From positions 62,001-126,000 of the forward strand of contig NZ_JPJI01000023.1 in the NCBI RefSeq assembly GCF_000732625.1: a DNA stretch of 64,000 nucleotides, read 5' to 3'. The first letter of the stretch is position 1. Every line of letters begins with the position of its first letter. Position numbers and translations under genes: made by a program. Shown here piece by piece: positions 4,001 through 62,162 of this stretch. The stretch is from Nonlabens ulvanivorans (GTDB lineage: Bacteria; Bacteroidota; Bacteroidia; Flavobacteriales; Flavobacteriaceae). Under the pieces are notes generated by a model that was not told the DNA's origin, searched no databases, and saw nothing but the letters and a program-made list of their open reading frames with translations.

Positions 4001-4068
4001 TGTTTGTACTAATCTCGCTTTCGCGAAAGCGTATTAATAAAGGTCTAAAAGTCGTGAGGAAACCCTAA
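1042..4068 (+). CDS. CHAT-domain (caspase-like) lipoprotein with helical repeats and C-terminal membrane anchor
   Basis: This is a 1008-residue protein. A lipoprotein signal peptide is visible (hydrophobic stretch ending 'TLICSC', Cys about residue 19). A long helical, TPR-like region fills residues 30-620. The C-terminal CHAT domain carries the expected caspase-type dyad: His829 in 'HLAMHA' and Cys873 in 'LSACNTAYG', followed by 'AGARATLTSLWRVPD'. A single transmembrane helix near residues 974-995 precedes a basic tail. CHAT proteases belong to the caspase/separase clan; TPR-CHAT proteins in other bacteria can cleave partner proteins. Here the protease would face the periplasm, which is an inference from the lipobox and terminal helix. 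The gene starts 10 bp after the T9SS-secreted protein. Its 3' end carries one copy of the 16-bp palindrome, encoding the basic 'SLSRKR' just after the membrane helix. The substrate is unknown. Confidence 0.85.
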   Translation: MKFSQLIISIFIITLICSCEKKEVEKELPKSQVSQELEKAKKLYKETTIDFIKYSNKQIRQKLDSALAITNSIKKHDTAFLIKLYRYDAQFKGLNLKMDESLNQLEKVILLQQSYSQTDTLKLLSDYHFISRYSLDNSLLRKALYEGVRPQKDLASKQLESFPEVNKQSIEYLQYLLNAMSSEYSIYQELGDFAAIEKWITEAEPFFLSQMESVSNYKNNSSTPKNPYYDFEINYYLSNLAFKLSEYYFINNQQDKAIFYNNHFKAFYHPVDNYANLVYCLRKFRSKQKLDEKEIDSMYRQAVFHNNLVQKNSHFKEIEKKHYIENKCLGILSEITSRYAYRKFGDSKEAVAWYKKAIKLVDDAQTDQQTHPLFSINKLLIYYENQEDPEKLRFYLDQFFVYNEKISQISQDRILLGYEIRYALNYGTKKEADRGLKELFKSYSINGYDINTSRDAYSKVNGIPQNVSDCLKIANTIKRYNEQNPEHTIEVLPLYFLASAILKSYIGNQPSDQDIEVQNEIKENLLRLAYTNNKLTKNHLKMVLLSIQELQQPLLHKKLSINDLLKKHDISHLGKTLEYLKNQIQIDLERLNNKTLDSDTDFWESQYALHQRELQNLVDSISVKAPSFHMVQNTNLDMDSFLKNMDQSDAIIKLDSDEKDIYAFILTKNNIDISYVASKKDYENILKHSKNSDFNFKKRNILSKKVVSNTNGKNFIKIIPDITLNPLPVEYLVSPEQVGSYITSINAVSKHNENQTLKAIVFRPDYNEKRNHTAETLVRSGKFELPYAKEETSYINKIFNSRNMEAANATKQNFLKEAPDYNMHHLAMHAVVNPENDNEGKLLFQGETDDDYLKLKEVYNLSLDSQLITLSACNTAYGKVDPIEGTLSLSRAFQYAGARATLTSLWRVPDRETSIIMKSFYTHLKDGDRKDVALKKAKQDYLRNQIEEDLKHPYYWAGFIITGDTSPIIFPTPWYYYLAIGLIIVMVFVLISLSRKRINKGLKVVRKP
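4016..4031. repeat. 16-bp palindrome copy 1 (exact)
   Basis: Exact CGCTTTCGCGAAAGCG inside the CHAT gene, read as Ser-Leu-Ser-Arg-Lys after the terminal membrane helix. It is 3129 bp from the next copy. See the finding on evenly spaced palindromes. Confidence 0.95.
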
Positions 4069-4886
4069 TCCCACAGTTTAAAACGAGCTCCAAATACCAT
4101 ATTTACCTGACGGAATAGAAAACTCTGACTTGCAGAATCTGAAGTGTCAGCAGTAGTTCGGATATCATTCATGTTGATATAACCACCTTTTAATTCTGTT
4201 TGAACAAAGAAGTGCTCAAAAAACTCAAAATTAATACCTAGCACAGCACTTAAGCCATATCCTGATACGTGAAACTCATCATAACGCTGGCGGCCCAATA
4301 ATTTAGTATTTGTTTTAGGGATAATGATTCCTCCTTCAAGACCAGTGACCGCTTGAAGGCTAAAGAATTTATAATCCCACAAATGGTCCATGCGACGCAA
4401 TCCTATATTAACATAGTTAAGCCCATCAGTATGTTCAAACTGTAAAAACGAGCGATCTAGCGATATCTCCTCATTATTATAAACGCCGTTATATAGGGTA
4501 GAGGTATCGTCTATGCGACCATTAATACGCACGGTTTGATCTCTTAGCATAACATATTTCATATGATCTGCTCCTATAGAGATATTATACTTGTCGTTTA
4601 TAAAATATCCTATTCTAAAATTGTATTGAGGTATGGTTATGCTACCAGGATTTAGATATTTTTTAGGATCAAAATCTGATTGACGATCATATGCCACTAC
4701 ATCTTCAAGAGTAAAGTCATAGTTGTCGCCTGTAAATGTAATATCTGATTTACCATAGGCAGATAAGTTCCAACCCCAATAAATGTAAAAATCTCCTTTG
4801 CGACCTGATGTATTAACCGGTTCTACTTGTGAAAAGGACTGATTAAAAATAGTAATTACTAGAAAGGTAAATATGTAGTATTTCAT
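4065..4886 (-). CDS. Putative outer-membrane beta-barrel protein
   Basis: 273 residues with a Sec signal peptide (hydrophobic core 'FTFLVITIF', cleavage likely after 'QSFSQ'). The mature part is rich in alternating aromatic and polar residues typical of beta strands ('FYIYWGWNLSAYG', 'YNFRIGYFINDKYNISIG', 'FFVQTELKGGYINM') and ends with 'MVFGARFKLWD', which resembles a barrel C-terminus. No enzyme motif was seen. The gene is convergent with the CHAT gene and their stop codons overlap by 4 bp, so the two are separate transcription units with no room for a terminator between them. Function is unknown; an OmpW- or OmpA-like barrel is the best structural guess. Confidence 0.7.
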   Translation of the reverse strand: MKYYIFTFLVITIFNQSFSQVEPVNTSGRKGDFYIYWGWNLSAYGKSDITFTGDNYDFTLEDVVAYDRQSDFDPKKYLNPGSITIPQYNFRIGYFINDKYNISIGADHMKYVMLRDQTVRINGRIDDTSTLYNGVYNNEEISLDRSFLQFEHTDGLNYVNIGLRRMDHLWDYKFFSLQAVTGLEGGIIIPKTNTKLLGRQRYDEFHVSGYGLSAVLGINFEFFEHFFVQTELKGGYINMNDIRTTADTSDSASQSFLFRQVNMVFGARFKLWD

Positions 4887-4978
4887 ACTTATTGTTGTGC
4901 AAAACGCAAAAGTAACACTAATAAAATGAGAACTATAAAGGCTACTATAAAAACAATCATAGTAGAATAGATAAATTA

Positions 4979-5013
4979 ATGCTAAATTGATATATTTATG
5001 CTAAATTAATATA
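4979..5013 (+). promoter_or_regulatory. Tandem direct repeat (19-bp period), candidate operator
   Basis: Two 16-bp units, ATGCTAAATTGATATA at 4979-4994 and ATGCTAAATTAATATA at 4998-5013, differ at one base. They start 19 bp apart and end 4 bp before the start codon of the zinc-ribbon HTH gene at 5018. A repeat this close to the start is where an autoregulatory protein could bind. It may instead reflect chance in AT-rich DNA. Confidence 0.45.
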
Positions 5014-5017
5014 GGTT

Positions 5018-5431: not shown

Positions 5432-5550
5432 ACTATAGTGCTTAACAGATAGCTATATTAAATTTTAATTAACATAAGATTTTGATGAGGTTAGCAGTGC
5501 GGTTAGAATTGAATTCTAATGGTTTATACTAATCTTAAAAACAATATCTT

Positions 5551-6795: not shown

Positions 6796-6813
6796 TCTTA
6801 AAATCAATCAATT

Positions 6814-7077: not shown

Positions 7078-7144
7078 TCAAAAGTAGAATTAAAGTAAAT
7101 CTAAAAAATATACTGTTGTAGTGGGTGCTGGGTTGGGAACATTA

Positions 7145-7160
7145 CGCTTTCGCGAAAGCG
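7145..7160. repeat. 16-bp palindrome copy 2 (exact, symmetry extends to 24 bp)
   Basis: Exact core in the spacer between the DUF4212 and symporter genes. Perfect dyad symmetry extends four bases on each side (7141-7164, ATTA/TAAT flanks), the longest in the window. No T-run follows, so it does not look like a terminator. Confidence 0.95.
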
Positions 7161-12001: not shown

Positions 12002-12367
12002 ATGAAGAAGATTTTAATTGTTGATGATGAACCTAATATCGTGATGTCTCTAGAATATGCATTTAAGAAGCAAGGATATTCAGTTTTTATTGCTCGTGAT
12101 GGAAGTGAGGCGCTGGTTATTATGGAAAGAGAGATTCCTGATTTAGTTATTCTAGACGTCATGATGCCACAGGTAGATGGTTATGAGACCATTGGGATGA
12201 TAAAAAATAATCCCGCTTTCGCGAAAGCGAAAGTCATATTCTTATCTGCAAAAAGTAAAGCTGCAGATATAGAAAAAGGTCTTAAGCTAGGTGCTGACGA
12301 GTATTTCACGAAGCCTTTTTCTGTTAAAAAATTAATTACAGCAGTTGATCATTTAATACGTGCATAG
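12002..12367 (+). CDS. Single-domain response regulator (receiver only)
   Basis: 121 residues, a complete CheY-like receiver with no output domain: acidic pair Asp8-Asp9 in 'LIVDDEPN', phospho-acceptor Asp52 in 'LVILDVMMPQVDG', and Lys104 in 'FTKPFS'. It starts 4 bp after the symporter-kinase gene and ends 2 bp before prpE, so it is the cognate partner in an operon. Lacking a DNA-binding domain, it must pass its signal to another protein; in the CrbS/CrbR acetate switch the regulator has a LuxR-type output, so this system is built differently. One palindrome copy lies within the gene and encodes 'PAFAKAK' near residues 71-77. Confidence 0.9.
   Translation: MKKILIVDDEPNIVMSLEYAFKKQGYSVFIARDGSEALVIMEREIPDLVILDVMMPQVDGYETIGMIKNNPAFAKAKVIFLSAKSKAADIEKGLKLGADEYFTKPFSVKKLITAVDHLIRA
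12214..12229. repeat. 16-bp palindrome copy 3 (exact)
   Basis: Exact copy inside the receiver-only response regulator gene, read in the Ala-Phe-Ala-Lys-Ala frame. It lies 5069 bp after copy 2 and 4009 bp before copy 4. Confidence 0.95.
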
Positions 12368-16222: not shown

Positions 16223-16238
16223 CGCTTTCGCGAAAGCG
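16223..16238. repeat. 16-bp palindrome copy 4 (exact)
   Basis: Exact copy 22 bp after the acs stop and upstream of the acs terminator hairpin. It is a separate structure from that terminator. Confidence 0.95.
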
Positions 16239-17907: not shown

Positions 17908-18051
17908 AACCTTTTTGTTTGGATTAAAATTAGAGTTAATCCGTATTAAAGATGTCACGATTAAATAACAATATTGTGATTTTTAAATGCTTATGTTTTT
18001 TTTGTTTACACTTTCGCAAATGCGTGTTAACTTTAACTCAAATCTATTCTT

Positions 18052-20790: not shown

Positions 20791-20806
20791 CGCTTTCGCG
20801 AAAGCG
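20791..20806. repeat. 16-bp palindrome copy 5 (exact)
   Basis: Exact copy 20 bp upstream of the start codon of the GldM-like lipoprotein gene. It is close enough to lie in the 5' leader of that gene. Confidence 0.95.
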
Positions 20807-24602: not shown

Positions 24603-24618
24603 CGCTTCCGCGAAAGCG
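24603..24618. repeat. 16-bp palindrome copy 6 (one mismatch)
   Basis: CGCTTCCGCGAAAGCG, a single T-to-C change in the left arm. It lies just after the fasciclin terminator, 3812 bp from copy 5. Confidence 0.9.
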
Positions 24619-28238: not shown

Positions 28239-28254
28239 CGCTTTCGCGAAAGCG
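28239..28254. repeat. 16-bp palindrome copy 7 (exact)
   Basis: Exact copy 3 bp after the terminator T-run, in the 228-bp gap upstream of dnaG, 3636 bp from copy 6. Confidence 0.95.
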
Positions 28255-37133: not shown

Positions 37134-39111
37134 AAAAAGCATACTGAATAGAATCTACATTGTAGGTGCAGTGCTTTTAATCATTGCCCTAGGAATTGTT
37201 GTGAAGATTATCAATATTCAATTTATCGACGGAGATAAATATCGCGCAAAGGCAGAACAGCGAATTTTTAAAAATGATACTATACCTGCAAACCGTGGGA
37301 ATCTCTATGATGCTAATGGGCAATTACTAGCAACCTCTATATCAAAATATGATATCAGATTTGATGCAGTGGCACCTAGCGAGGCAGATTTTAATGAGTT
37401 TATTGGGGCTTTGAGTGACTCGCTTTCGCGAAAGCTAAACCGTCCAAAATCTTATTTTTCTAAAAAACTACGTACCGCTCGCAGTAACCGTAATCGTTAT
37501 TTGCTAATCACTAAAAACTTAAACTATAGTGATTACATACAGATTAAATCATTTCCTCTATTTAGAAAAGGTCCGTATCGAGGTGGTATCATTGTAGAGC
37601 AGCGTGTAGTAAGAGAACATCCTCTAGGTAAAATGGCAGAACGTATAGTAGGTTATGATAAACCTGGTAGTGCACCTGTAGGATTAGAAGGTGCCTTCTC
37701 TCAATACTTGAGAGGTAGTAATGGAGTGCGCCAAAAACAAAAAATTTCTCAAAATCAATGGAAACCTATTAGTGGTGCAAATGAGATTGAGCCACAAGAT
37801 GGATATGATGTTTACACTACTATAGATGTGAACATGCAAGATGTTGCTCATCATGCCTTGCTAGAGCAGTTAGAGTATTTTCAAGCAGAACACGGTACTG
37901 CAGTTGTCATGGAAGTTGCAACTGGAGAAATAAAAGCTCTTTCTAATCTAGGTCGTGGAGAAAGTGGTAAATATTTTGAAAAGCGCAATTATGCGGTATG
38001 GGAATCGCACGAGCCTGGATCTACATTTAAACTTATGAGTGTAGTTGCGGCTCTTGAAGATAAGGTGGTAGATACAAGTACTGTCTTTGATACTAGAGGT
38101 GGGAAAATTTCATATTATGGGCGTGATGTAAAAGATTCTAAATACGGCGGTTATGGAAAGATAAGTGTTGCGAGAGCATTTGAGGTTTCTTCTAACACTG
38201 CTTTAGTACAGATGGTTACAGATAATTATAAGGGTAAAGATGAAAGCGCTAGATATGTTGATCGTCTTTATAGTATGGGATTAAATAAAAGATTAGATCT
38301 TTCTATTACTGGCGAAGGTATTCCTAGAATTCCGCATCCCGAGGATAATCAATGGAGCGGTACATCTTTACCATGGATGGCTTTCGGTTATGGAGTGCAT
38401 CTAACACCTTTGCAAACCTTGACTTTTTATAATGCGATTGCTAACAATGGTGTGATGGTTAAGCCTCGCTTAATAAGAGAAGTACGCTCTAAAGATCAGT
38501 TAATTGAAAGGTTTGATCGCAGTATTTTAAACCCTTCTATCTGTTCTCAACAAACGGTAAACAAGGTGAAAGTAATGATGGAAAATGTTGTGAAACGTGG
38601 TACAGCAGATAATCTTTATTCCCCAAGTTTTTCTATGGCTGGCAAAACAGGTACCTGTCAGACTGGTTACGGAGATAAAACAAAAAAACTGGAATATATC
38701 GCTTCTTTTGCTGGTTATTTTCCTGCAGATGAACCTAAGTATAGTTGTATAGTAGTGATACATAAACCGAATACAGCGAAAGGTTACTATGGAAATATCG
38801 TTGCTGGTCCAGTGTTTAAAAAAATCGCTCAAAAGATTTATGCAAATAATCCTATGCTGGATGAAGTGCCTATGCCTGAAATAGCGCCAGATGATATCAT
38901 AAAGTCTCAAGAAGCATTTTATACACAAGCTCAATCCACGTCAAATAAAATACCCAATTTAAAAGGTATGGACGCCATGGATGCTTTGACATTACTTGAA
39001 AATCTTGGAGCAAAAGTAGTACTCAAAGGAAAAGGTAAGGTTAAAGAGCAGAGTGCTGCACCTGGAACTCGAGTAAAGACTAATGATCAAATTACACTAA
39101 CTCTATCATGA
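37120..39111 (+). CDS. ftsI: Septal peptidoglycan transpeptidase FtsI (PBP2-type) with a PASTA domain
   Basis: 663 residues: one N-terminal membrane helix, a dimerisation domain and a transpeptidase domain with active Ser301 in 'EPGSTFKLMS' (SxxK), 'SSNTAL' (SxN) and 'AGKTGTCQTG' (KTG). A single PASTA domain ends the protein ('IPNLKGMDAMDALTLLENLG'). It cross-links septal peptidoglycan with FtsW. PASTA tails are common on Bacteroidota and Gram-positive FtsI homologues but absent from E. coli FtsI. A palindrome copy encodes 'SLSRKLNRP' in the N-terminal domain near residue 103. The stop overlaps the murE start (ATGA). Confidence 0.95.
   Translation: MATTEKSILNRIYIVGAVLLIIALGIVVKIINIQFIDGDKYRAKAEQRIFKNDTIPANRGNLYDANGQLLATSISKYDIRFDAVAPSEADFNEFIGALSDSLSRKLNRPKSYFSKKLRTARSNRNRYLLITKNLNYSDYIQIKSFPLFRKGPYRGGIIVEQRVVREHPLGKMAERIVGYDKPGSAPVGLEGAFSQYLRGSNGVRQKQKISQNQWKPISGANEIEPQDGYDVYTTIDVNMQDVAHHALLEQLEYFQAEHGTAVVMEVATGEIKALSNLGRGESGKYFEKRNYAVWESHEPGSTFKLMSVVAALEDKVVDTSTVFDTRGGKISYYGRDVKDSKYGGYGKISVARAFEVSSNTALVQMVTDNYKGKDESARYVDRLYSMGLNKRLDLSITGEGIPRIPHPEDNQWSGTSLPWMAFGYGVHLTPLQTLTFYNAIANNGVMVKPRLIREVRSKDQLIERFDRSILNPSICSQQTVNKVKVMMENVVKRGTADNLYSPSFSMAGKTGTCQTGYGDKTKKLEYIASFAGYFPADEPKYSCIVVIHKPNTAKGYYGNIVAGPVFKKIAQKIYANNPMLDEVPMPEIAPDDIIKSQEAFYTQAQSTSNKIPNLKGMDAMDALTLLENLGAKVVLKGKGKVKEQSAAPGTRVKTNDQITLTLS
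37421..37436. repeat. 16-bp palindrome copy 9 (one mismatch)
   Basis: CGCTTTCGCGAAAGCT in ftsI, last base changed. Read in the Ser-Leu-Ser-Arg-Lys frame, as in copy 1. Confidence 0.9.
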
Positions 39112-41820: not shown

Positions 41821-43178
41821 TGAGCTGGTTAAAAACAAACAATAAAAAGCGTATTGTCATATTGGGTGGCGGCATGAGTGGCGTAGGTGCTGCCATGCTA
41901 GCAACGCAACGAGGATATGATGTTTTTTTAAGCGACGGTGGTGTTTTGAAAGATGCTTTCGCGAAAGCGTTACAAGATCAACATATCCCACATGAGACTG
42001 GTGGACACGATATGGAGCAAATCTTAAATGCAGATGTTGTAGTTAAAAGTCCTGGTATACCTGACAACGCTACAATTGTTCAAAAAATTCTAGAGGCTAA
42101 TATTCCTGTGATTTCTGAAATTGAATTTGCTTCAAGATTTACAGATGAGGTAGAAATAGCTATAACCGGTAGTAATGGTAAAACTACAGTTACTAGTTTA
42201 GTAGGTCATATACTTCAAATAGCAGATTTTGACGTCTCCGTAGGTGGGAATATAGGACAAAGCTATGCTGCTCAAGTTGCGGAAGCACCAGCTGAATATA
42301 GAGTTCTAGAGGTGAGTAGCTTTCAGCTAGATGGTATAAAAACCTTTAAACCTAAAATAGCTGTTTTATTAAATATTACGCCAGATCATCTCGATAGATA
42401 CGATTACAAATTTGAAAATTATGTAGCCAGTAAATTGCGCATTGCCATGAATCAAGATGAGAATGATTTTCTTATCTACAATGCTGACGATCCTGCTATA
42501 ATAGAAGCTCTCAAAATTCATAAGCCCAAATCGAAATTAGTTCCATTCAGCATGCAGAAGCAGCTAGATTTTGGAGCATACATACAAGATCATAATATCA
42601 ACATTAACCTAGACACAAACCTTTTTACTATGCCTATTCAAAATTTATCCATTAAAGGACAGCACAATACAGCAAACGCGATGGCAGCAGCCACTACCGC
42701 AAAATTGCTTCAAATCCGTAAGGAAACCATAAGACAAAGTTTAGCTTCTTTTCAAGGAGTTGAGCATCGTCTAGAGCAAGTTTTGAAAATTAATAAGGTA
42801 CAGTATATCAATGATTCAAAGGCTACTAACGTAAATGCAACTTATTATGCATTAGATAGTATGGAAAAGCCTACGGTATGGATTGTAGGTGGTGTTGATA
42901 AAGGTAACGATTACAGTGAGTTGTATGCACTAGTAAATAAAAATGTGAAAGCTATAGTTTGTCTAGGAACTGATAATTCAAAAATTGTTGAGGCATTTGG
43001 TAGTTGTGTAGATAATATGGTTGAAACATCTTCTATGGAAGATGCAGTACGTGTCGCATATAAACTTGCAGGTCCTGGAGATAACGTTTTATTATCACCT
43101 GCCTGCGCCAGTTTTGATCTATTTGAAAATTATGAAGATCGTGGAAGACAATTTAAAAATGCAGTGAGAGCACTATAA
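41820..43178 (+). CDS. murD: UDP-MurNAc-alanine-D-glutamate ligase MurD
   Basis: 452 residues. The N-terminal nucleotide-binding fold begins 'VILGGGMSGVGAAMLA'; the ATP loop is 'GSNGKTT'; later family motifs include 'LNITPDHLDRY' and 'YINDSKATNVNAT'. It adds D-Glu to UDP-MurNAc-Ala. The start overlaps mraY by one base, and ftsW begins directly after the stop. A palindrome copy encodes 'DAFAKAL' in a surface loop after the first Rossmann strands. Confidence 0.96.
   Translation: MSWLKTNNKKRIVILGGGMSGVGAAMLATQRGYDVFLSDGGVLKDAFAKALQDQHIPHETGGHDMEQILNADVVVKSPGIPDNATIVQKILEANIPVISEIEFASRFTDEVEIAITGSNGKTTVTSLVGHILQIADFDVSVGGNIGQSYAAQVAEAPAEYRVLEVSSFQLDGIKTFKPKIAVLLNITPDHLDRYDYKFENYVASKLRIAMNQDENDFLIYNADDPAIIEALKIHKPKSKLVPFSMQKQLDFGAYIQDHNININLDTNLFTMPIQNLSIKGQHNTANAMAAATTAKLLQIRKETIRQSLASFQGVEHRLEQVLKINKVQYINDSKATNVNATYYALDSMEKPTVWIVGGVDKGNDYSELYALVNKNVKAIVCLGTDNSKIVEAFGSCVDNMVETSSMEDAVRVAYKLAGPGDNVLLSPACASFDLFENYEDRGRQFKNAVRAL
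41954..41969. repeat. 16-bp palindrome copy 10 (one mismatch)
   Basis: TGCTTTCGCGAAAGCG in murD, first base changed. Read in the Ala-Phe-Ala-Lys-Ala frame, 4533 bp from copy 9. Confidence 0.9.
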
Positions 43179-45459: not shown

Positions 45460-46819
45460 TTTGCAACATATCACACATGTTTATTTCATCGGTATAGGTG
45501 GTATCGGGATGAGTGCGCTTGCTCGTTATTTAAATGAGCAAGGTAAAATAGTTGCAGGTTATGATAAGGTCATTACTTCGCTCACAAAACAATTAGAAGA
45601 AGAAGGGATTGATATTCATTACAATGATGATTTCAATAGCATCCCTGCAGAATTTAAAAATCCTGATACGGCTCAAGTTATATTTACACCTGCAATTCCA
45701 GCCACGATGGATGAATTATTACGCTTTCGCGAAAGCGGAATACCAATTCTCAAACGTGCTCAATTATTAGGGCAGATTTCACAAACGATGACCTGTCTAG
45801 CTGTTGCTGGAACACATGGTAAAACAACAACTAGTGCGATTCTAGCACATCTACTTTATAAAAGTGATGTTGAAGTAACAGCTTTCTGTGGTGGTATTTT
45901 AGAAGAATATAACACGAACTACCTATGTTCAGGAACAGATGTAATGGTCGTTGAGGCAGATGAGTTTGATCGCTCATTCATGCAATTATCTCCAGATATT
46001 GCTGGTATAACAGCAATAGATGCAGACCATTTAGATATCTATGGAGATGTTGCCACCTTTGAAAAAACCTTTCATGACTTTGCATCATTGTTAGAAGGTA
46101 AGACGCTTTTAGTAAATGAACAGGTTGCTATAGATGGTATAAAGGTAGGGTTAGTTCATGGTAAGTTTAAAGCGATCAATATCGTAATTGCTGGTGGTGC
46201 TTATCATTTTGATTTACAAATTGAAGAGGTTATCCATAAAGGATTTTGTTTACAATTACCGGGCAAGCACAATTTATCTAATGCACTTCTAGCGATTGCA
46301 ATGGCTGTTGAGTATGGTGTTTCCATAGAAAAATTGAAACATGCTCTAGTGACTTTTCAAGGTGTGGAGCGCAGGTTTACTTATAGAATAAATACAGAAG
46401 AAAGGGTTCTTATTGATGACTATGCGCATCATCCCACAGAAATAAATGCTGTTCATCAAGCGGTAAGGGAAATGTATCCTGACGAGAAAGTGCTAGCTAT
46501 TTTTCAGCCTCATTTATTTTCTCGTACAAAAGATTTCATGAATGACTTTGTTACTAGTCTAGCTCAATTTGATAAAATAGCATTGCTGGACATCTATCCT
46601 GCAAGAGAATTACCTATAGAAGGTATAACCTCTCAGGTGTTGTGTAGTAAAATTCAAAAATTAGAGGAAAAGCCTGCGGTCATAACGGTTCTTGAAAAAG
46701 AAGATATCGCAGAGTTTATAGAAGAAATGAACACTCGAGTGGTGGTTATGATAGGTGCTGGAGATATAGGTGTAGAGATAAAAAAGTTGATAAATAAACC
46801 GTTGAATAATGAGCATTAA
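45452..46819 (+). CDS. murC: UDP-MurNAc-L-alanine ligase MurC
   Basis: 455 residues. It opens with '[18 protein letters not shown]', has the ATP loop '[10 protein letters not shown]' and the later motifs '[10 protein letters not shown]' and '[12 protein letters not shown]'. It adds the first L-Ala to UDP-MurNAc. Overlaps of 8 bp with murG and 11 bp with ftsQ suggest one operon. A palindrome copy is read in the rare frame as 'LRFRESGIP', replacing the region where other MurC proteins have a variable helix. Confidence 0.96.
45722..45737. repeat. 16-bp palindrome copy 11 (exact)
   Basis: Exact copy in murC, read in the Arg-Phe-Arg-Glu-Ser frame, the only copy in this frame. It is 3768 bp from copy 10. 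Confidence 0.95.
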
Positions 46820-47522
46820 AAGCATACTAAAATATGGCCTGTGTATAGTGTTGATATTCAGTGCATACGCTTTTGCAGGTCATCGATTTGAGAAAAGAAC
46901 GGTTAAAGATGTAACTGTTTCTTTTACAGATAGTAAAGCATTATTCATATCTGAAAAAAACGTTAATAAATTGTTGATACAAAATATAGACAGTGTGGAA
47001 TCTATAGCGTTAGAAAAATTAGATTTGAATGAAGGTGAATTGCGTTTGATTGATAACGCAATGATCAGAGGTGCAGAGGTTTCCGTTTCTTTAGAAGGTG
47101 AAGTTAATGTGCTAGTAGAACAGCGCACGCCTATTGCAAGGTTAATGTTATCTTCTCAGGTGTATCTCGATGCCGATAACAAAATAATGCCTTTATCAAC
47201 AGAGCACACAGCATTTGTTCCGCTGGTCTATGGTTATAAAGAGTCATTTAATGAAAAGCTTTTTGAATTGATCAATTTTATAAATGATGATTCGTTTTTA
47301 AAGCCTTCCATCACACAAATTTCTTTTGATAAAAAAGGAAAAGTTACTATGCAAATAAGAGCTCATGATCATGACATCTTATTGGGTAAAATTGAAGATT
47401 TACAACACAAGGCGATGAACTATAAAGCGTTTATTGCAAAAATGAAGAAAGATAATCGCTTAAATCAAGTTAAAACGATCGACTTGAGGTATAAAAATCA
47501 GGTCGTTAGTATTAAAAAGTAA
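46809..47522 (+). CDS. ftsQ: Cell division protein FtsQ
   Basis: 237 residues: short cytoplasmic start, one transmembrane helix ('ILKYGLCIVLIFSAYAFAG'), then a periplasmic POTRA-like and beta domain ('KDVTVSFTDSKALFISEKNV', 'EVSVSLEGEVNVLVEQRTPI', 'YLDADNKIMPLS'). This matches FtsQ/DivIB topology, and it sits in the expected place between murC and ftsA. It links FtsL/FtsB to the divisome. ftsA begins 4 bp after the stop. Confidence 0.9.
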   Translation: MSIKSILKYGLCIVLIFSAYAFAGHRFEKRTVKDVTVSFTDSKALFISEKNVNKLLIQNIDSVESIALEKLDLNEGELRLIDNAMIRGAEVSVSLEGEVNVLVEQRTPIARLMLSSQVYLDADNKIMPLSTEHTAFVPLVYGYKESFNEKLFELINFINDDSFLKPSITQISFDKKGKVTMQIRAHDHDILLGKIEDLQHKAMNYKAFIAKMKKDNRLNQVKTIDLRYKNQVVSIKK

Positions 47523-48924: not shown

Positions 48925-50928
48925 ATGAGTAATGAAGATTTTAACAGTATAGCATTTGACTTACCTTTAAATAAGTCAAATGTGATTAAAGTAATAGGTG
49001 TCGGTGGTGGCGGTAGTAATGCCATTAAACACATGTTCCAGCAAGGAATAAAAGGAGTAGATTTTGTTATCTGTAATACAGATTCACAAGCGCTAGATAA
49101 TAGTCCAGTGCCTAACAAAATACAATTAGGTGTAACCTTAACAGAAGGTCTAGGAGCTGGAGCAAACCCAGAGGTAGGTGAGCGTGCTGCGCAAGAAAGC
49201 ATTGAAGAATTGCGTGGTATGTTAGATACTAATACTAAAATGGTATTTATTACCGCTGGTATGGGTGGTGGAACAGGAACTGGTGCTGCGCCAGTGATTG
49301 CTCAAGTATCACGAGAGATGGGCATTCTTACTGTGGGAATTGTAACCACACCATTTAATTTTGAAGGTAAAGTACGTAACGAGCAAGCACAGCTGGGAAT
49401 AGAAAAATTCCGTTCTCAGGTGGACTCCTTAATAATTATTAATAATAATAAGCTTAGAGAAGTTTATGGGAACTTAGGTTTTAAAGCAGGTTTCTCAAAA
49501 GCAGATGAGGTACTTGCTACTGCCTCACGTGGTATTGCAGAGGTTATAACGCATCACTACACGCAAAACATTGACTTGCGTGATGCAAAAACCGTTCTTT
49601 CAAATTCTGGAACAGCCATTATGGGAAGTGCTCAGTCTACAGGAGCAAACCGTGCCCAAGAAGGGATTATTAAGGCTTTAGATTCTCCTTTATTAAATGA
49701 TAATAAAATCACTGGTGCAAAGAATGTATTGCTACTTATTGTTTCTGGATCAGAAGAAATTACCATTGATGAAATAGGAGAGATTAACGATTTAATCCAG
49801 ACAGAAGCTGGTGGTGGTGCAAATATCATTATGGGTGTAGGAGAAGATGAATCTTTGGGAGACGCTATTTCTGTAACCGTAATCGCTACGGGATTTAATA
49901 AAGAACAGCAAAATGATATCTCAAATACTGAGGCAAAACGCATCATTCACACCTTAGAAGATGAGCAGCGCGCTAGTGCCGTTTTACAAGAGAAAACTAC
50001 CGATGCATCCCCAGGAAAAGTTATTATGGACCTAGATGATAGTGTTGATGATACAGGAGATATAGATAACGCTTTCGCGAAAGCGGAATCACCACAACCT
50101 GTAGTTGCACCGCAGCCTACAGAGCCTGTGAAAATTATACACACACTAGGTGAAGAAGAACCTGAGCCAATAATGCCAGCGGTTAAAGAAGAGAATACTT
50201 TAATACCAACTACAGAGTTTATTTCAAACCTAAATGTGGTATATGAAGAAGTGCTGGATAAGGTAAAACCAACAGAATTTGTAATAACAGAAGCACAACC
50301 TGAAGCGACTCATCTTGAAGAAGAGATTGAAGAAGAAAAGGATCAATTCTTTTTAGATTTTGATATGCCTGTGTCTAATAAGGAAACTATAGAGCCAGAA
50401 AAACCTATTGTACATAATCTAGAAGACATAGAAGTTAACGACCCTATTAACGTGATTCCTGTAACTGAAGTAACAACAGATGGAATAACTAAATACTCAC
50501 TAGATGATTACATGGAAATTGAAGAAACCATGAATCAAGCTAAGCCTGTCAATAAGCAGCCTGAACAAGTTGCAGAAGAGGAAATTCAGATTGTGGCTAA
50601 AAGTGCGCCTACAGAGCCATTAAATAGTACTGTGGTAAAAGACACAACTGTTGACGATGTAGATCTTACAGACTTACCTATCAATGAAATGTTAGTGCTT
50701 AGAGCCGAAGAACGTAAGCGTAAAATGCATGCATACAATTTCAAGTTTAAGAATTCACATAGACTTGAAGAAATTGAAAAAAAGCCTGCTTTTGAACGAC
50801 ATGGTGTACAGCTAGATGAATTGCCTAGTGAGGCTGATCGCTCTAGAACTACACTTTCTACAGATGAAAATGATGATATACAGTTGAGGACAAACAACAA
50901 CTCATTTTTACACGATAATGTAGATTAA
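48925..50928 (+). CDS. ftsZ: Cell division protein FtsZ with a long C-terminal linker
   Basis: 667 residues, far longer than the ~380 of E. coli FtsZ. The GTPase core occupies about residues 1-330: '[13 protein letters not shown]', the tubulin signature '[11 protein letters not shown]', and the T7-loop region '[20 protein letters not shown]'. An acidic, Pro/Glu-rich disordered linker of about 250 residues follows, containing a palindrome copy encoding 'NAFAKAES'. The C-terminal ~80 residues are conserved-looking and basic-to-acidic ('[20 protein letters not shown]', ending '[10 protein letters not shown]'). It forms the Z ring. Long linkers are usual in flavobacterial FtsZ. A strong terminator follows. 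Confidence 0.96.
50070..50085. repeat. 16-bp palindrome copy 12 (exact)
   Basis: Exact copy in the disordered linker of ftsZ, read in the Ala-Phe-Ala-Lys-Ala frame. It is 4348 bp from copy 11. Confidence 0.95.
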
Positions 50929-52439: not shown

Positions 52440-55400
52440 ATGCTATCAAATATTATCAATTTCAGCATCAAGAATAAACTCATTATTCTTCTATTTACTG
52501 TATTCATTATTGGATTCGGTTTATATTCTCTTACTCAAATTCCCATAGGTGCCGTACCAGATGTTACTAATAATCAAGTACAGGTAATTACCACATCTCG
52601 TAATCTATCGACACGAGATATGGAGCAATTCATTACATATCCTGTAGAATTAGAAATGGCAAATTTACCTGGTGTGCAGGAAATTCGCTCGGTTTCAAAA
52701 TTTGGATTATCCGTGGTTACTATTGTCTTTGATGATGATATGGGAACCTATCTTCCCAGACAGCTTATTGCCGAGAAGATAAAATCTGCAACAGAGAAAA
52801 TTCCAGAAGGTTTTGGAACACCTGAAATGGGACCTATAACCACAGGACTAGGTGAGATATATCAATATATACTTGATGTAGAGCCAGGTTATAAAGATCA
52901 GTATACTGCACAAGACCTGCGTACCATACAGGATTGGATAGTAAAAAGGCAATTATCTGGTATACCTGGCGTGATAGAGGTCAATACATGGGGTGGATTT
53001 TTAAAGCAATATGAAGTTGCTATTAATACAGAAAAATTAAACGCGATGGATATCACATCGCAAGAAGTATTTATAGCCCTAGAAATGAACAATAGTATTT
53101 CTGGTGGTAGTTACATAGAAAAAGTAAATCAGGCTTATTTTATAAGAGGAGAAGGATTAATATCCTCCATCGATGATATTAATAATATAGTCGTTAAGAA
53201 TAGTGATAATTTCCCCATTTACATAAAAGATGTAGCGACTGTAGATTATGGAAGCGCACCACGTTTTGGAGCCATTACAGGTAATGGTGAAGGCGAGAAA
53301 GTGCTAGGACAGGTCATGATGCTTAAGGATGCAAACTCTAAAAAAGTCATCGATGCTGTTAAAGAACGAGTAGAATTAATATCTAAGTCATTGCCTGAAG
53401 GTGTTTATATAAACGCTTTCCTCGATCGCAGTGAATTAATCGCTAAGACTACATTTACCGTTTCAGAGAATTTAATATTAGGATGTTTAATCGTCATTTT
53501 TATTGTTGTTTTATTACTAGGTAGCTGGCGATCAGGCCTTGTAGTAGCATCGGTGATACCGTTGTGTTTATTATTTGCATTATCTCTTATGTACGTTTTT
53601 GGGGTAGACGCAAACCTTATGAGTTTAGGAGCGATAGACTTTGGTATTATCATCGATGGAGCAGTGATTATTGTAGAATTTATTGCTTTTGAGATCACCA
53701 GAAAGAAAGATGAGATTCTCGCTTTCGCGAAAGCGGATCAACAACAAATTAAAGATAAAATTACTATTCATGGTGCATCAAAAATGATGAACTCTGCAGT
53801 GTTTGGGCAGCTCATTATATTGATTGTTTTCATACCTATCCTTTCCTTATCTGGTGTAGAAGGCAAGATGTTTAAACCGATGGCACTCACATTTAGTTTT
53901 GCATTGATAGGCGCGATGATTTTGTGTTTTACATATGTGCCAGTAGTAGCTTCCATCTTTCTTAAGCCATCCACAATATCAGATAAAAATATATCTGTGC
54001 GATTAATGAAGTGGTTGCATAAAATTTATGAACCTGTTATTGAATGGGCATTAGTAAGTAAACGCATCGTCCTATCTATCGCAGTTCTTTTACTATCCTT
54101 ATCTATTTATTTATATGCCACGATGGGCGGTGAATTTGTACCTACACTAGATGAAGGTGATTTTGTTATACAACCAGTACTTAAAACTGGTACTTCATTA
54201 AGTAATACGGTGGCGATTACAACACAAATAGAATCTATATTACTAGATGAATTTCCTGAGGTGAAACAAGTGGTAACTCGTATAGGTGCTGCAGAGGTTC
54301 CTACAGACCCTATGTCTATGGAAGAAAGCGATGTTATTATAGTTTTAAAACCAAAAAGTGAATGGAAATCTGCATCTACAAAAGATGAATTAGCAGACAA
54401 ATTCAAAGAAGCGCTAGCCATTATTCCAGGAATGGAAGTAGAATTTACACAACCTATTGAGATGCGTTTTAATGAGTTAATTACAGGTGTAAGAGCAGAT
54501 ATTGCCATTAAAATATTTGGCGACGACCTAGATGTGTTAACTAAAAAAGGTAATGAAATAGGAACCTTAATAGAAAACGTTCTTGGGGCTGCAGACGTGT
54601 CTGTAGAGAAGATAGCTGGATTGCCTGAAATGAATGTAAAATTCAACAGATTAAAAATAGCTCGATATGGTCTTAACATTCAAGAAGTAAATGACATGAT
54701 TGCTATGGGATTTGCCGGTCGCCAGGCTGGTAGCGTTTTTGAAGGTGAGAAACGATTTGATTTAGTCCTCAGGCTAGATAAAAAAAATAGACGGGATATT
54801 GAAGATTTAAAAAATCTTTACATCGATGTGCCTAATGGCGGCAAGATTCCTTTAAGTGAACTTGCAGAGATAACCTATCAAAAAGGAGCTGCAAAAATTT
54901 CTAGAGATGATACTAGACGTAGAATTGTAGTAGGTGTCAATGTACGTAACCGTGATTTACAGTCTGTGGTAGATGATGTTCAAAAATTAATTGATGATAA
55001 TGTAGAATTACCAGTAGGTTATAACATCACATATGGTGGTCAGTTTGAAAATTTACAGAGCGCAAAGTCCAGACTACTGGTAGCAGTACCTATTGCCTTA
55101 ATTTTAATATTTATACTTCTTTATTTTGCATTTAAATCGGTTAAAGAGGCGTTGATTATTTACTCGGCTATACCACTGGCTGCGGTAGGTGGTGTTTTAC
55201 TATTGTGGATAAGAGATTTGCCTTTTAGTATATCTGCAGGAGTAGGTTTTATAGCATTGTTTGGTATTGCAGTGTTAAATGGTATCGTTTTAATAGAACA
55301 TTTTAAAGAGTTGAAAAAAGAAGGTCGGTTTAACAATATTAATGATCTTATAAAACAGGGAACTAGAGATAGGTTACGTGCAGTATTGTTAACCGCTATG

Positions 55401-56771
55401 GCTGCTGCATTAGGTTTTTTACCTATGGCAATATCGACCAATGCTGGTGCTGAGGTACAACGACCACTTGCAACCGTTGTTGTAGGTGGTTTGATAACTG
55501 CAACTTTACTTACCCTAATAGTACTACCAGTGTTATATGCTTATTTTAATAAGCCTAAAGTTAAGTCAGCTACAAGCCATAATGGAATAGTAACGACTAG
55601 CTTAATGATTTTTTCAATCGCGGCAATAGGTCAGGCACAACAACAGCCTATAGATTTAGAAACCTTGATTCCTATGGCGTTAGAGAATAATGCCAGTATC
55701 AAAGCACAAGAATTACAAGTGGATCATTCTAATGAGCTAGTTAATAGTGCATTTAGTTTTGATAAAACCCAGTTGTATTATGAGTTTGATCAAAACAACC
55801 TCGCGATTAATAATAAGCCGTTGAGAGTTTTGGGTATTCAACAAGATTTTAAGTTTCCGACGGTTTATTTTACTCAAAAGAAAGTGAATGAAGCAAATGT
55901 AGCATTGGTAACCAGTGCAAGAGATATCAATAAAAAGAATATTGAAAGAAAAGTAACCATTGCTTATTATCAGTATCAAATCGCTAGAAAAAAAGAGGTG
56001 GCACTTAAAACTCTCGATAGTTTATATACTAACTTTTCAAGTATGGCGACCAGACGCTTTGAACTAGGTGAGACTAATTATTTAGAAAAAATAACAGCTG
56101 CCTCAAAACAGAAACAGATCAATACTAAATATCTAGAGTCAAGGCTAGATGTTGTGTTAAGTTATAACGAGTTAAAGAAGCTAGTGCAGTCATCTGATAC
56201 TCTTATATTGGTTGCAGAAAAAGATCTAAAAATCCCTCTAGAAAGGATCGATGTTGAGTCTAGTGTAGAATTGGATTATTATCGCAACCGAATTTCTTTA
56301 TTAGATGCACAAAGGCAATTAGAGAAAAAACAATTACTACCAGATATCAGTCTTCATTATTTTCAAGGAACTAATTCTGAACTGAATAGTAGTTTATATG
56401 GTTATCAGGTAGGTTTAAAAATTCCTCTTCTATTTGGAGGACAGTCCTCACGAATTAAAGCATCAGGTATAGCGCAGCAAATTGCATCTCAAGAGTATAA
56501 TGAATATAATATTCAATTAAAGGCTCGATATGAAGCTCTTATGGTAAGAAGAAATCAATTAAATAATGCGCTATTATATTATGAGCAAGAAGGCACCGCG
56601 CTGTCTGATGAAATCCTCAAAACCGCGCAAGGAAGCTTTAAGAATGGTGAGATTGATTTTTATCAATTTATACAAAGCCTAGAAGGAGCCTATGAGATCA
56701 AACTAGATTATCTAGAGCAGTTAAATCAATACAATAATGTAGTAATAGAAATCAATTACTTAACCTTATAA
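52440..56771 (+). CDS. Heavy-metal RND efflux permease (CzcA type) fused to an outer-membrane factor
   Basis: 1443 residues. Residues 1 to about 1035 form an HME-family RND permease with 12 membrane helices. The TM4 motif 'DFGIIIDGAVIIVE' (two Asp and a Glu) is the signature of pumps for divalent ions (Zn, Co, Cd, Ni) rather than Cu(I)/Ag(I). A second hydrophobic stretch near residues 1048-1065 ('TTSLMIFSIAAIGQAQQQ') looks like an internal signal peptide with a cleavage site. The remaining ~380 residues are a TolC/CzcC-like factor ('LETLIPMALENNASIKAQEL', 'FQGTNSELNSSLYGYQVGLK'). Permease-factor fusions are common in Bacteroidota. A palindrome copy encodes 'LAFAKADQQ' in the cytoplasmic loop after TM4. 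Confidence 0.9.
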   Translation: MLSNIINFSIKNKLIILLFTVFIIGFGLYSLTQIPIGAVPDVTNNQVQVITTSRNLSTRDMEQFITYPVELEMANLPGVQEIRSVSKFGLSVVTIVFDDDMGTYLPRQLIAEKIKSATEKIPEGFGTPEMGPITTGLGEIYQYILDVEPGYKDQYTAQDLRTIQDWIVKRQLSGIPGVIEVNTWGGFLKQYEVAINTEKLNAMDITSQEVFIALEMNNSISGGSYIEKVNQAYFIRGEGLISSIDDINNIVVKNSDNFPIYIKDVATVDYGSAPRFGAITGNGEGEKVLGQVMMLKDANSKKVIDAVKERVELISKSLPEGVYINAFLDRSELIAKTTFTVSENLILGCLIVIFIVVLLLGSWRSGLVVASVIPLCLLFALSLMYVFGVDANLMSLGAIDFGIIIDGAVIIVEFIAFEITRKKDEILAFAKADQQQIKDKITIHGASKMMNSAVFGQLIILIVFIPILSLSGVEGKMFKPMALTFSFALIGAMILCFTYVPVVASIFLKPSTISDKNISVRLMKWLHKIYEPVIEWALVSKRIVLSIAVLLLSLSIYLYATMGGEFVPTLDEGDFVIQPVLKTGTSLSNTVAITTQIESILLDEFPEVKQVVTRIGAAEVPTDPMSMEESDVIIVLKPKSEWKSASTKDELADKFKEALAIIPGMEVEFTQPIEMRFNELITGVRADIAIKIFGDDLDVLTKKGNEIGTLIENVLGAADVSVEKIAGLPEMNVKFNRLKIARYGLNIQEVNDMIAMGFAGRQAGSVFEGEKRFDLVLRLDKKNRRDIEDLKNLYIDVPNGGKIPLSELAEITYQKGAAKISRDDTRRRIVVGVNVRNRDLQSVVDDVQKLIDDNVELPVGYNITYGGQFENLQSAKSRLLVAVPIALILIFILLYFAFKSVKEALIIYSAIPLAAVGGVLLLWIRDLPFSISAGVGFIALFGIAVLNGIVLIEHFKELKKEGRFNNINDLIKQGTRDRLRAVLLTAMAAALGFLPMAISTNAGAEVQRPLATVVVGGLITATLLTLIVLPVLYAYFNKPKVKSATSHNGIVTTSLMIFSIAAIGQAQQQPIDLETLIPMALENNASIKAQELQVDHSNELVNSAFSFDKTQLYYEFDQNNLAINNKPLRVLGIQQDFKFPTVYFTQKKVNEANVALVTSARDINKKNIERKVTIAYYQYQIARKKEVALKTLDSLYTNFSSMATRRFELGETNYLEKITAASKQKQINTKYLESRLDVVLSYNELKKLVQSSDTLILVAEKDLKIPLERIDVESSVELDYYRNRISLLDAQRQLEKKQLLPDISLHYFQGTNSELNSSLYGYQVGLKIPLLFGGQSSRIKASGIAQQIASQEYNEYNIQLKARYEALMVRRNQLNNALLYYEQEGTALSDEILKTAQGSFKNGEIDFYQFIQSLEGAYEIKLDYLEQLNQYNNVVIEINYLTL
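53720..53735. repeat. 16-bp palindrome copy 13 (exact)
   Basis: Exact copy in the czcA-like gene in the Ala-Phe-Ala-Lys-Ala frame, in a loop between membrane helices. It is 3650 bp from copy 12. Confidence 0.95.
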
Positions 56772-56781: not shown

Positions 56782-57945
56782 ATGCAACGCATTATAAATA
56801 AATACACTTTTTTAATTCTATTACTGGTTCTAGCCAGTTGTGGTGAAAAAGAATCTACAAGTTTAGATAGTCAAACGTCAGACACTCATCGCAATGATGA
56901 TAGGATATTTGTATCTACAGCACAGTTTGAAAATAGTAATATGACACTGGGAAAACTGATCCAGCAACCTTTTCCTATAACTGTAAAAACAACCGGAATG
57001 ATAGATGTGCCACCAGAAAATAGAGCGGTCGTAAATGCAACTATGGGCGGTTATATTAAATCAACTCCGTTATTAATAGGTGATAAGGTGCGTAAAGGAC
57101 AGGTTTTAGTGTCAATTGAGAATCCAGATTTTGTTAAGATCCAGCAAGAGTATCTGGAAGTTAAGGAACAAATGACTTATTTGAGAGTGGAGTATGAGAG
57201 ACACCAAACTATGATGGATGAAAACATTACCTCTCAAAAAAGTTTCTTAAAAGCAGAAAGTTCTTATAAAACTATAAACGCTAGATACACTGGATTGCGC
57301 AAGCAATTACAAATGTTAAATATATCTCCTTCTAATGTAGAAGCAGGCACGATTGTATCTGTAGTTAATATTTATGCACCTATCTCTGGAAGTATTACTA
57401 AAGTTAATGTAACTAGAGGTACCTATGTATCACCTGCAACAGCAATTCTAGAAATAATCGATAATGATCACTTACATCTAGAATTATCGGTTTTTGAAAA
57501 AGATATTCTGAAACTTCAAAAAGGACAAAAGATTAATTTTAAAATCCCAGAGTCATCAAATGAAACTTTCCTTGCCGACGTTCATCTTATCGGTACCACG
57601 ATTGAAGATAATAGAACTATAAAGGTTCATGGACACATAAATAGTGAAAAGGAAATACATTTTCTAACAGGTATGTTTGTTGAGGCAGGAATTGTGATTG
57701 ATTCCGCTTCCGCGAAAGCGTTACCAGAAACAGCTGTTGCAAATATGGACAATGAAAATTATGTGTTGATACTAGATGAAACTACTAATGCAGGCTATTA
57801 TTTTACACAAGTTGAAGTTGAAATAGGTCAACAATTAAATCAGTATATTGAAATAGTAACCGATTCTAAAATCAACGATGAAATTACTTTTTTAATTAAA
57901 GGTGCTTTTAATCTAGTCGGAGAATCTGGTAGTCACGATCATTAA
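56782..57945 (+). CDS. Periplasmic adaptor of the metal efflux pump (CzcB type)
   Basis: 387 residues. Lipoprotein signal ('FLILLLVLASCGEKES', Cys about residue 20). Barrel-sandwich and coiled-coil parts are visible: 'NATMGGYIKSTPLLIGDKVR' with 'KGQVLVSIENPDF', a helical hairpin of about residues 115-185, and 'NIYAPISGSITKVNVTRGTY'. It joins the permease to the outer-membrane factor. It starts 10 bp after the czcA-like gene. A palindrome copy (one mismatch) encodes 'SASAKALPE' near residue 310. Confidence 0.92.
   Translation: MQRIINKYTFLILLLVLASCGEKESTSLDSQTSDTHRNDDRIFVSTAQFENSNMTLGKLIQQPFPITVKTTGMIDVPPENRAVVNATMGGYIKSTPLLIGDKVRKGQVLVSIENPDFVKIQQEYLEVKEQMTYLRVEYERHQTMMDENITSQKSFLKAESSYKTINARYTGLRKQLQMLNISPSNVEAGTIVSVVNIYAPISGSITKVNVTRGTYVSPATAILEIIDNDHLHLELSVFEKDILKLQKGQKINFKIPESSNETFLADVHLIGTTIEDNRTIKVHGHINSEKEIHFLTGMFVEAGIVIDSASAKALPETAVANMDNENYVLILDETTNAGYYFTQVEVEIGQQLNQYIEIVTDSKINDEITFLIKGAFNLVGESGSHDH
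57705..57720. repeat. 16-bp palindrome copy 14 (one mismatch)
   Basis: CGCTTCCGCGAAAGCG in the adaptor gene. It has the same T-to-C change as copy 6, read Ala-Ser-Ala-Lys-Ala. It is 3985 bp from copy 13. Confidence 0.9.
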
Positions 57946-61800: not shown

Positions 61801-62091
61801 AATCACCATTCCTTGTTCCTTCATAGAAGTAGAGTAGACGTACTCGACACCTTTGATGTTAGAAATAAGTTGCTCCAGTGGTTTAATAACACGAGATTCC
61901 ACCTCAGTAGGGCTAGCACCTGGATAACCTACAAAGATATCTGCCATAGGCACATCGATCTGTGGTTCTTCCTCACGTGGTATTAAAAATGAGCTGTATA
62001 CTCCTACGACCATAAAGACGATCATTAAGAGTACAGTCAGCTTTGAATTCATAAAGACTTTGGCAACTTTACCAGCTAATCCTTCTTTCAT
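58897..62091 (-). CDS. RND efflux permease (hydrophobe/AcrB-like branch)
   Basis: 1064 residues with 12 predicted membrane helices. The proton-relay pair is in 'VTGIVVDDSIIIAENMHRHF' (VDD motif in TM4). Other landmarks are the N-terminal 'FLIPREEEPQIDVPMADIFV' with 'GYPGASPTEVESRVIKPLEQ', and the late 'TPILLTAGTVVIGAFVILFD'. It lacks the DFG motif of the metal pump upstream. It likely exports organic compounds, but the substrate is unknown. Gene order on the minus strand is outer-membrane factor, adaptor, permease, DUF2892. Confidence 0.93.
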   Translation of the reverse strand: MKEGLAGKVAKVFMNSKLTVLLMIVFMVVGVYSSFLIPREEEPQIDVPMADIFVGYPGASPTEVESRVIKPLEQLISNIKGVEYVYSTSMKEQGMVIVQFYVGEDIERSFVKLYNEINKHMDQMPEGVTMPLVKTRAIDDVPMLGLTLWSENYSDYQLGQMAHELEAEIKKINDVAITHKIGGRERQLRVVLDKDKLASSGLDFMQVSQMIKANNAQLNAGKFDKNDTEFIVNTGDFLASTTDVENLVVGVQQNQPIYLKQVAQIIDGPEVPQSYVSLGFGLGSDKKTDFLSEYPAVTISVAKRKGADAMKIADVIIAKVEHLRKTLIPDDVQVEITRNYGETASHKVSELLLHLIGSIIAVTFVVMLAMGWRGGLVVFLSVPITFALTLLSYYMLDYTLNRITLFALVFVTGIVVDDSIIIAENMHRHFKMKRLPFKDAALYAINEVGNPTILATFTVIASVLPMAFVSGLMGPYMAPMPIGASIAMILSLFVALTITPYLGYIFLREKDKKGRVEKTEKPLEETLIYRLYNKFERPLMENRFNRWLFLGGTFLILLVTMGLFFTNSVAVKMLPFDNKNEFQVVIDMPEGTTLERTGVVAQEISQYLSTRPEVVNYQNYIGTSAPITFNGLVRHYDLRGGSNMADIQVNLIDKEKRSAQSHDIASLLRPDIQKIAAKYNANVKLVEVPPGPPVLSTIVAEIYGPDYEQQIIVANEVQNILKNTDDVVDIDWMVENDQTEYQFTINKEKAMLYGVAPQQIAYTMHLALSDRPVTNLYDEDAVQQIGIVLALDEKEKSTIQDISQLKVASNQGTMVPIADLVEISESISAKSIYRKNQKRVVYVMADMAGELESPAYAILGMEEKLKSIPMPEGYSISEIYLGQPDFEDDYTVKWDGEWQITLEVFRDLGIAFLGAIILIYILIVGWFQNFKAPIVMMVAIPLSLIGIILGHWIMGAFFTATSFIGMIALAGIMVRNSVLLIDFINLRTAEGVPLKQAAIEAGAVRTTPILLTAGTVVIGAFVILFDPIFQGLAISLMGGTIVSTVLTLLVVPLVYYMIEKKNYK

Positions 62092-62146
62092 TAGATATAT
62101 TTTTTGGGCGTTTTAACAGGCTATCCGTTACAATCTTTTTGAAGGC

Positions 62147-62162
62147 AGTTTTCGCGAAAGCG
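62147..62162. repeat. 16-bp palindrome copy 15 (two mismatches)
   Basis: AGTTTTCGCGAAAGCG in the 121-bp gap between the adaptor and permease genes. The right arm is intact and the left is changed at two bases. It is 4442 bp from copy 14. Confidence 0.75.

Follow-up and report, generated by a model that had tools for sequence, protein, structure and literature searches.

A palindrome recurring every 4 to 5 kb in Nonlabens genomes: a possible signal for self-recognition or chromosome organisation

Repeated DNA signals of several kinds have been described in bacteria. The sites bound by Noc (NBS, Noc binding sites), parS and matS are protein-bound sequences that form a palindrome or have dyad symmetry, Chi sites, short and polar, occur genome-wide at one per several kb, and the uptake signal sequences (USS) of Haemophilus have flanks with an A/T preference, as has the palindrome described here. 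We know of no palindromic uptake signal and of none from Bacteroidota. The DNA uptake sequences (DUS) of Neisseria, in the sections of PMC2397512 considered here, combine a similar set of features, including a spacing matched to conversion fragments and stringent conservation; they lie in permissive places, are missing from recently acquired genes and show too many differences to have originated by point mutation. A relatively even distribution of USS is, according to part of PMC7811141, the expected outcome of drive. Other models are the cyanobacterial palindrome HIP1 (GCGATCGC), linked to orphan methyltransferases in an excerpt of PMC4390886, and the symmetric, degenerate gyrase motif of ~130 bp (PMC7017377, in part). 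Our palindrome was found in a 64,000-nucleotide stretch of a Nonlabens draft genome (contig NZ_JPJI01000023.1, positions 62,001 to 126,000; hereafter the window), and it has the look of a signal for self-recognition or chromosome organisation. Like DUS and USS, it is present in hundreds of copies, which in the source genome are spaced more evenly than random, are conserved above background and were formed without indels; it differs from them in being a perfect palindrome of 16 bp flanked by an arm on either side, in its spacing of ~4.5 kb, in belonging to the phylum Bacteroidota and in that neither a secretin nor a pilus ATPase was found in 13 genomes. With HIP1 it shares the character of a highly iterated palindrome across a clade, and differs in its 16-bp core with ~50-bp arms and in its fewer copies (the HIP1 number being general knowledge). 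Its total length is similar to that of the gyrase motif as given in the same excerpt. It has more copies than Noc, parS and matS sites (their numbers again being general knowledge) and shows no visible trend along the chromosome in one genome, G204; it is accompanied by a single ParB_N gene and no extra GyrA or ParC.

In G000, the source Nonlabens genome (a 3.21-Mb draft; other G numbers are codes of compared genomes), CGCTTTCGCGAAAGCG was present in 682 copies at two or fewer mismatches against five of the reversed pattern, an over-representation of the kind expected of DUS and USS. All 23 genomes of the genus contained 288 to 857 exact inner 14-mers each, and none of the reversed control. 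A sequence-only reading of the window had suggested a chromosome-wide landmark, to be abandoned if base and codon composition explained its frequency; the palindrome is indeed genome-wide and genus-wide, with a copy number far over both the reversed control and dinucleotide shuffles. The flavobacterial host guessed by the same reading was also correct: the MraY of the window is closest to those of Nonlabens xiamenensis (86%) and N. dokdonensis (85%), and in a MurD tree, built without the site codons, 19 same-genus genomes and the two named Nonlabens form one group of 21 rows, the G218 row being identical there to that of N. xiamenensis. The genus is called Nonlabens because of this MraY similarity and MurD grouping. 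In a family sample 48 of 199 genomes held any copy at one or no mismatch, and beyond two Nonlabens only G190 was rich (377 copies) among 197 other genera, the remaining genomes having 21 copies (two genomes), 12 (one) or eight at most. In a phylum sample any exact 14-mer was found in 16 of 296 genomes, and besides G000 none had more than four. G190 (L011, L012, L194-L213) represents a second, unrelated genus near Leeuwenhoekiella in which the motif is also genome-wide, its outer base pair being less strict; in the MurD tree it groups with Leeuwenhoekiella and not with Nonlabens (97% by the SH-like approximate likelihood ratio test, for one gene and a quick method). The outermost pair is the most variable within the core and more so in G190, where its looseness is like a dialect. 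Among 78 other loci of the division and cell wall (dcw) cluster no 12- or 14-mer palindrome was present at three or more copies (two-letter palindromes excluded), a 10-mer palindrome reached three copies in six, a non-palindromic 12-mer reached at least five in three, and pooled k-mers gave no recognised analogue. No report of the 16-mer, the 14-mer or a Nonlabens palindrome was found in the open-licence literature, supplementary files being outside its scope; as that search covered open-licence papers only, the novelty of the signal is provisional.

All 15 copies listed for the window by the sequence-only reading are present at the coordinates it gave, ten of them exact, four with one mismatch and one with two, and a sixteenth with three mismatches was found at 18009; dinucleotide shuffles of the window gave a mean of 0.03 matches at three or fewer mismatches. 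Six of the 15 are intergenic, as that reading had counted, in a window of which ~9% is intergenic DNA (intergenic and coding status being from our own simple gene calls). Five species (G201, G202, G204, G206 and G208) were aligned to the window, and the copies, to which no strand is assigned, are the following:

4016 to 4031: exact copy close to the 3' end of a CHAT-domain gene (1042-4068); also exact in G201 and G206
7145 to 7160: exact copy, intergenic; exact in G206, the other four unaligned
12214 to 12229: exact copy within a response-regulator gene (12002-12367); exact in G206, the other four unaligned
16223 to 16238: exact copy, intergenic; exact in G201 and G206
18009 to 18024: degenerate copy with three mismatches; two mismatches at the orthologous place in G201
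20791 to 20806: exact copy, intergenic; exact in G201, one mismatch in G206
24603 to 24618: copy with one mismatch, intergenic; exact in G201 and G206
28239 to 28254: exact copy, intergenic; one mismatch in G201, exact in G206
32002 to 32017: exact copy in the 5' part of the gldB gene; exact in all five species
37421 to 37436: copy with one mismatch in the penicillin-binding protein (ftsI) gene; kept in three of five species
41954 to 41969: copy with one mismatch within murD; the site is found in all 21 Nonlabens murD rows
45722 to 45737: exact copy in murC; exact in all five species
50070 to 50085: exact copy in ftsZ, past the FtsZ_C domain; exact in all five species
53720 to 53735: exact copy within an AcrB-type efflux gene (52440-56771); also exact in G201
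57705 to 57720: copy with one mismatch in a HlyD/CusB-type gene (56782-57945); unaligned in all five species
62147 to 62162: copy with two mismatches, intergenic; two mismatches in G206 too

Given the two mismatches at its orthologous place in G201, the copy at 18009 to 18024 is perhaps a site in decay. The CHAT-domain gene at 1042-4068 encodes 1008 amino acids, and the palindrome copy lies 37 bases short of its end.

Gaps in the window have a mean of 4152 and a standard deviation (SD) of 615, which corresponds to a coefficient of variation (CV) of 0.15. The near-even interval of ~4.15 kb proposed earlier holds in the window, which is a local extreme; sites elsewhere in the genome are less evenly spaced. 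Spacing was sampled in 800 kb of G000 contig C32, 400 kb of G204 and 400 kb of G190. The G000 sample contained 121 exact, 43 one-mismatch and 12 two-mismatch sites (0, 0 and 2 for the reversed sequence), and these 176 sites define 175 gaps with a mean of 4475 and a CV of 0.43, compared with 0.99 for uniform placement (minimum of 4000 simulations 0.77) and a mean of 1.03 when sites are placed at random with their intergenic and coding counts kept (minimum of 2000 simulations 0.82). No gap was shorter than 1 kb (34.9 expected) and five were shorter than 1.5 kb (49.6 expected), while the pair correlation over the first four kb was 0.00, 0.26, 0.62 and 1.21 and remained at ~1 beyond. The non-randomness of G000 spacing is a short-range exclusion, not a lattice, and a periodic architecture was rejected on the same pair correlation, which is ~1 past the first few kb. 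In G190 the gap CV was 0.64, with two gaps under 1 kb for 12.5 expected, and in G204 the only spacing effect was a similar deficit (2 against 22 expected). Evenness of the DUS and USS type is therefore present in G000, and in G204 only as a deficit of short gaps; likewise, gaps proved non-exponential in the G000 sample, as had been anticipated, whereas the CV of G204 alone is compatible with an exponential distribution. Density along the G204 chromosome had no visible trend (44 stretches of 20 kb, 24 of them from two runs, with the origin unplaced).

Such spacing can be read in terms of chromosome organisation, with the dimer of a nucleoid protein binding each palindrome and wrapping or bridging about 115 bp, an explanation which is possible although on balance doubtful, and which closely rivals the exchange reading given below. 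If the benefit saturates within a few kb, adjacent sites would not be selected, and the lack of a visible density trend along one complete chromosome (G204) agrees with this explanation; the lack of a lattice, gaps of 20 and 33 kb without a site and the genome-wide presence of the motif in only two unrelated genera among those sampled do not. The candidate proteins are also unremarkable. ParB_N (PF02195) is encoded by one gene each in G000, G010 and G190, where no dedicated ParB-family paralogue was found, and GyrA/ParC number two per genome in 13 genomes (one gene is split in G216), an ordinary count with no extra GyrA or ParC paralogue. The suggestion of a segregation site made from the sequence found no support either, given the single ParB_N gene of those three genomes and the absence of a visible trend along G204.

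Conservation of the sites was examined by comparing aligned window sites identical in at least 15 of 16 positions with control 16-mers, sites in unalignable DNA being excluded. In G201 (overall identity 0.865) all 11 aligned sites passed, against 44% of controls, and in G206 (0.882) all 13, against 51%. In the more distant G202, G204 and G208 (identity 0.71-0.72) 4/5, 5/5 and 4/5 sites were kept against 6-8% of controls; these counts (13/15 in total) refer to the same five window sites in each species, the G208 murD site being counted as kept although the alignment, shifted there by 3 bases, does not show it at the mapped start, and both losses are of the ftsI site. Conservation above background, another DUS and USS property, is thus found relative to control 16-mers. 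Such deep positional conservation would equally be expected of a nucleoid protein site. Flanks to 55 bp have an identity of 0.82-0.84 in G201 and 0.79-0.86 in G206, compared with 0.87 and 0.885 for all aligned DNA.

How the sites arise can be followed in murD. The set consists of 21 Nonlabens rows (the gene is split in G203, and G211, G212 and G217 were left out of the 23 genus genomes; two rows are the same protein), and the site is present in all of them, 17 times exactly and four times with one mismatch, while in 83 other murD rows the aligned codons differ from it at 7-14 positions and contain no gap. Four of the five codons under the strongest synonymous constraint in Nonlabens murD fall within the site. 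No gap near the site was found at 74/76 other loci for murC and 73/77 for ftsI; for gldB only six other loci were alignable, one of them with a gap. As far as these alignments go, sites arise by codon replacement in place, without indels. This speaks strongly against a mobile palindromic repeat, similar to repetitive extragenic palindromes (REP) or miniature inverted-repeat transposable elements (MITE), as insertion would leave gaps and the murD, murC and ftsI alignments are almost all gapless; exclusion between neighbours is likewise foreign to such repeats. The mobile repeat was rejected, and together with its variant, an RNA hairpin terminator, it is the least credible of the explanations considered, in spite of the many copies and of a sequence which could form a 6-bp stem in RNA.

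A separate observation concerns the 83 non-Nonlabens murD rows (L035-L112), where the codons GTT CTT are frozen (codons 49-50, window 41967-41972; 72/79 of the Leu codons are CTT) and represent the strongest synonymous constraint of murD in these rows. A hidden cis element is likely at these codons, to judge from the constraint. An ancestral site at this place in other genera was considered and the overlap is treated as coincidence, the ftsI, murC and ftsZ sites showing no such likeness. In ftsQ, frozen synonymous codons (TTG in 73/73 and ATA in 72/72) also occur within codons 51-72 (window 46962-47027 and L035-L112), and perhaps mark an internal promoter.

The signal extends past the core. 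A flank profile of 662 half-sites at one or no mismatch from four species, some of them orthologous and hence non-independent, reads the same outward on both sides, with G rare and A common over ~17 bases and a second and third A excess near 24-33 and 44-50. The result is a dyad-symmetric, G-poor and A-rich signature to ~50 bp past the core, ~115 bp in total, which is present at coding and intergenic G000 sites, is weaker in G204 and in G190 involves only the nearest bases. There is no covariation between the two arms, complementary pairs numbering 1234 in G000 (1302 expected) and 316 in G190 (340 expected), as would be left by a symmetric protein recognising double-stranded DNA and not by a hairpin. 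Dyad symmetry, a signature ~50 bp past the core and missing covariation also speak for the nucleoid protein, and the gyrase motif, ~130 bp, symmetric and degenerate in the excerpt of PMC7017377, is a precedent for it. Another proposal made from the sequence, a methyltransferase target, here taken as comparable to HIP1, can draw on the highly iterated palindrome itself and on the orphan methyltransferases connected with HIP1. TCGCGA is indeed frequent in the 800-kb G000 sample (217 against 58 expected), of which 153 are within TTTCGCGAAA, the remainder being at about the expected number. The proposal is weakened because conservation continues for about 50 bp outward from either edge of the core, and a methylase requires no spacing; with no search aimed at methylases, we consider it very improbable.

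In the same G000 sample 67 of 176 sites are intergenic, although intergenic DNA amounts to 11.6%. Sites per kb are similar between tandem genes (45 in 44.2 kb) and divergent genes (17 in 19.8 kb) and lowest between convergent ones (5 in 14.1 kb), which is unlike terminators; the terminator or hairpin was rejected on this distribution and the missing flank covariation. Within genes the preferred reading is Ala-Phe-Ala-Lys-Ala (53/109).

The longest G204 gap (33 kb) encodes a TraG-like conjugation ATPase and a phage-type integrase and the second longest (20 kb) a phage-type integrase and an ORC-CDC6-like ATPase, and by this content both look like acquired islands. Ten gap proteins were annotated, nine from these two gaps and the tenth, from a third gap, a BlaR1-type peptidase; the 800-kb G000 sample has four long gaps of 10.5-12.1 kb. 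Two phages from a Nonlabens host (Persicivirga sp. IMCC12024) had no copy at three or fewer mismatches in 71 kb. An exact scan of viral contigs returned 41 stretches on 30 contigs, and 18 contigs (36-47% GC) with at least two copies at one or no mismatch held 52 copies in 277 kb, a density which is an upper bound because stretches were selected for holding a copy. Family matches to phage head, packaging or tail proteins were obtained for eight of ten proteins from five motif-bearing viral contigs, one match being weak. A signal acting like Chi in both directions, or protecting self DNA, by halting a nuclease and sparing DNA with a site every few kb, would account for the spacing and for sites in phage contigs beside none in the two free phages. 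Like Chi, the palindrome is genome-wide at several-kb spacing; Chi is short and polar, however, and a long element without polarity, a 16-bp core with 50-bp arms, is unexpected, and long site-free gaps persist, which makes this explanation unlikely. In the copy-poor flavobacterial genomes G087, G078, G012, G111 and G101 copies are clustered, some with mismatches, and seven proteins from such clusters in four genomes (L001-L010) are of AcrB, outer-membrane efflux, P-type ATPase, HlyD and Fur types; these clusters may be islands once resident in a motif-bearing donor or host.

Together these results form the pattern expected of a lineage-specific DNA-binding factor acting in trans. We tentatively prefer to see the 16-mer as the core of a ~115-bp dyad-symmetric recognition site marking Nonlabens DNA as self in exchange, while considering this somewhat more apt to be wrong than right. 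A putative dimeric factor would recognise the palindrome together with the arms, poor in G and rich in A, and would favour uptake or recombinational use of site-bearing fragments; were these a few kb long, one site per fragment would suffice. Biased exchange would then accumulate sites, preserve them and keep them apart, i.e. act as molecular drive. We infer the factor, its role in exchange and drive as the cause from the genomic pattern, which the DNA-uptake reading, already suggested from the window, fits best, and it falls short in the machinery: the type IV pilus or secretin expected of a DUS or USS system was found in none of 13 genomes. ComEC and HHH_3 proteins, the latter having what we take to be the fold of ComEA, are present in motif-bearing genomes. 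Partial samples of Nonlabens and G190 were compared with a possible transferred binding protein in mind and gave 256 well-covered matches, of which the 30 most similar were read by coordinates and identity, unannotated. According to part of PMC7965970, Riemerella columbina shows natural competence with a preference for its own DNA.

A number of points weigh against self-recognition in exchange. To our knowledge, uptake sequences are not palindromic. Secretins gave no match at the family cut-off in 13/13 genomes, and the pilus-type ATPase (PF00437) was over the cut-off in 0/13, with weak matches only, so that these genomes contain no recognisable type IV pilus or type II secretion system (T2SS) route; distant homologues could have been overlooked, and the lack of both components in recognisable form holds the uptake reading down. 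ComEC and HHH_3 are found equally in 6/13 genomes without the genome-wide motif, and no report of natural competence in Nonlabens was found in the open-licence literature. The gap CV of G204 is 0.98, the same as uniform, with some very long gaps. Scarcity of sites in islands is not demonstrated in general since the gaps were picked as gaps, and the permissive setting of sites is weakly supported by sequence identity because this is lower than average in DNA at 301-600 bp from them too (0.85 in G201, 0.865 in G206); with these two features less well supported, the reading is lowered further. Phage contigs hold several copies each (e.g. L116, L118, L120, L133, L143, L150), and symmetry and footprint suit a nucleoid protein equally. 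In the portion of PMC7811141 considered, USS have a spacing near 1 kb and a length of 31 bp, compared with 4.5 kb and a ~115-bp dyad footprint for the palindrome. Pilus-type homologues of F. johnsoniae, at about 24% identity, are described in part of PMC7965970, where F. johnsoniae was not competent.

Taken together, we suggest with some reserve, and rather doubtfully, a new kind of chromosome-wide self mark, in which a DNA-wrapping factor, dimeric and lineage-specific, and the palindrome as its site label host DNA every few kb and control exchange or chromosome folding, having originated independently or been transferred in two flavobacterial genera with no recognisable pilus and no second ParB. 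An uptake signal, if true, would have no palindromic precedent and none from Bacteroidota, as far as we know, and in cells without a recognisable uptake secretin it would point to a new DNA receptor. A chromosome-organising site would, for its part, provide some 700 repeats per genome with a readable ~115-bp footprint. On either reading the site is usable as bait for its protein, and it may tag DNA that has passed through Nonlabens.

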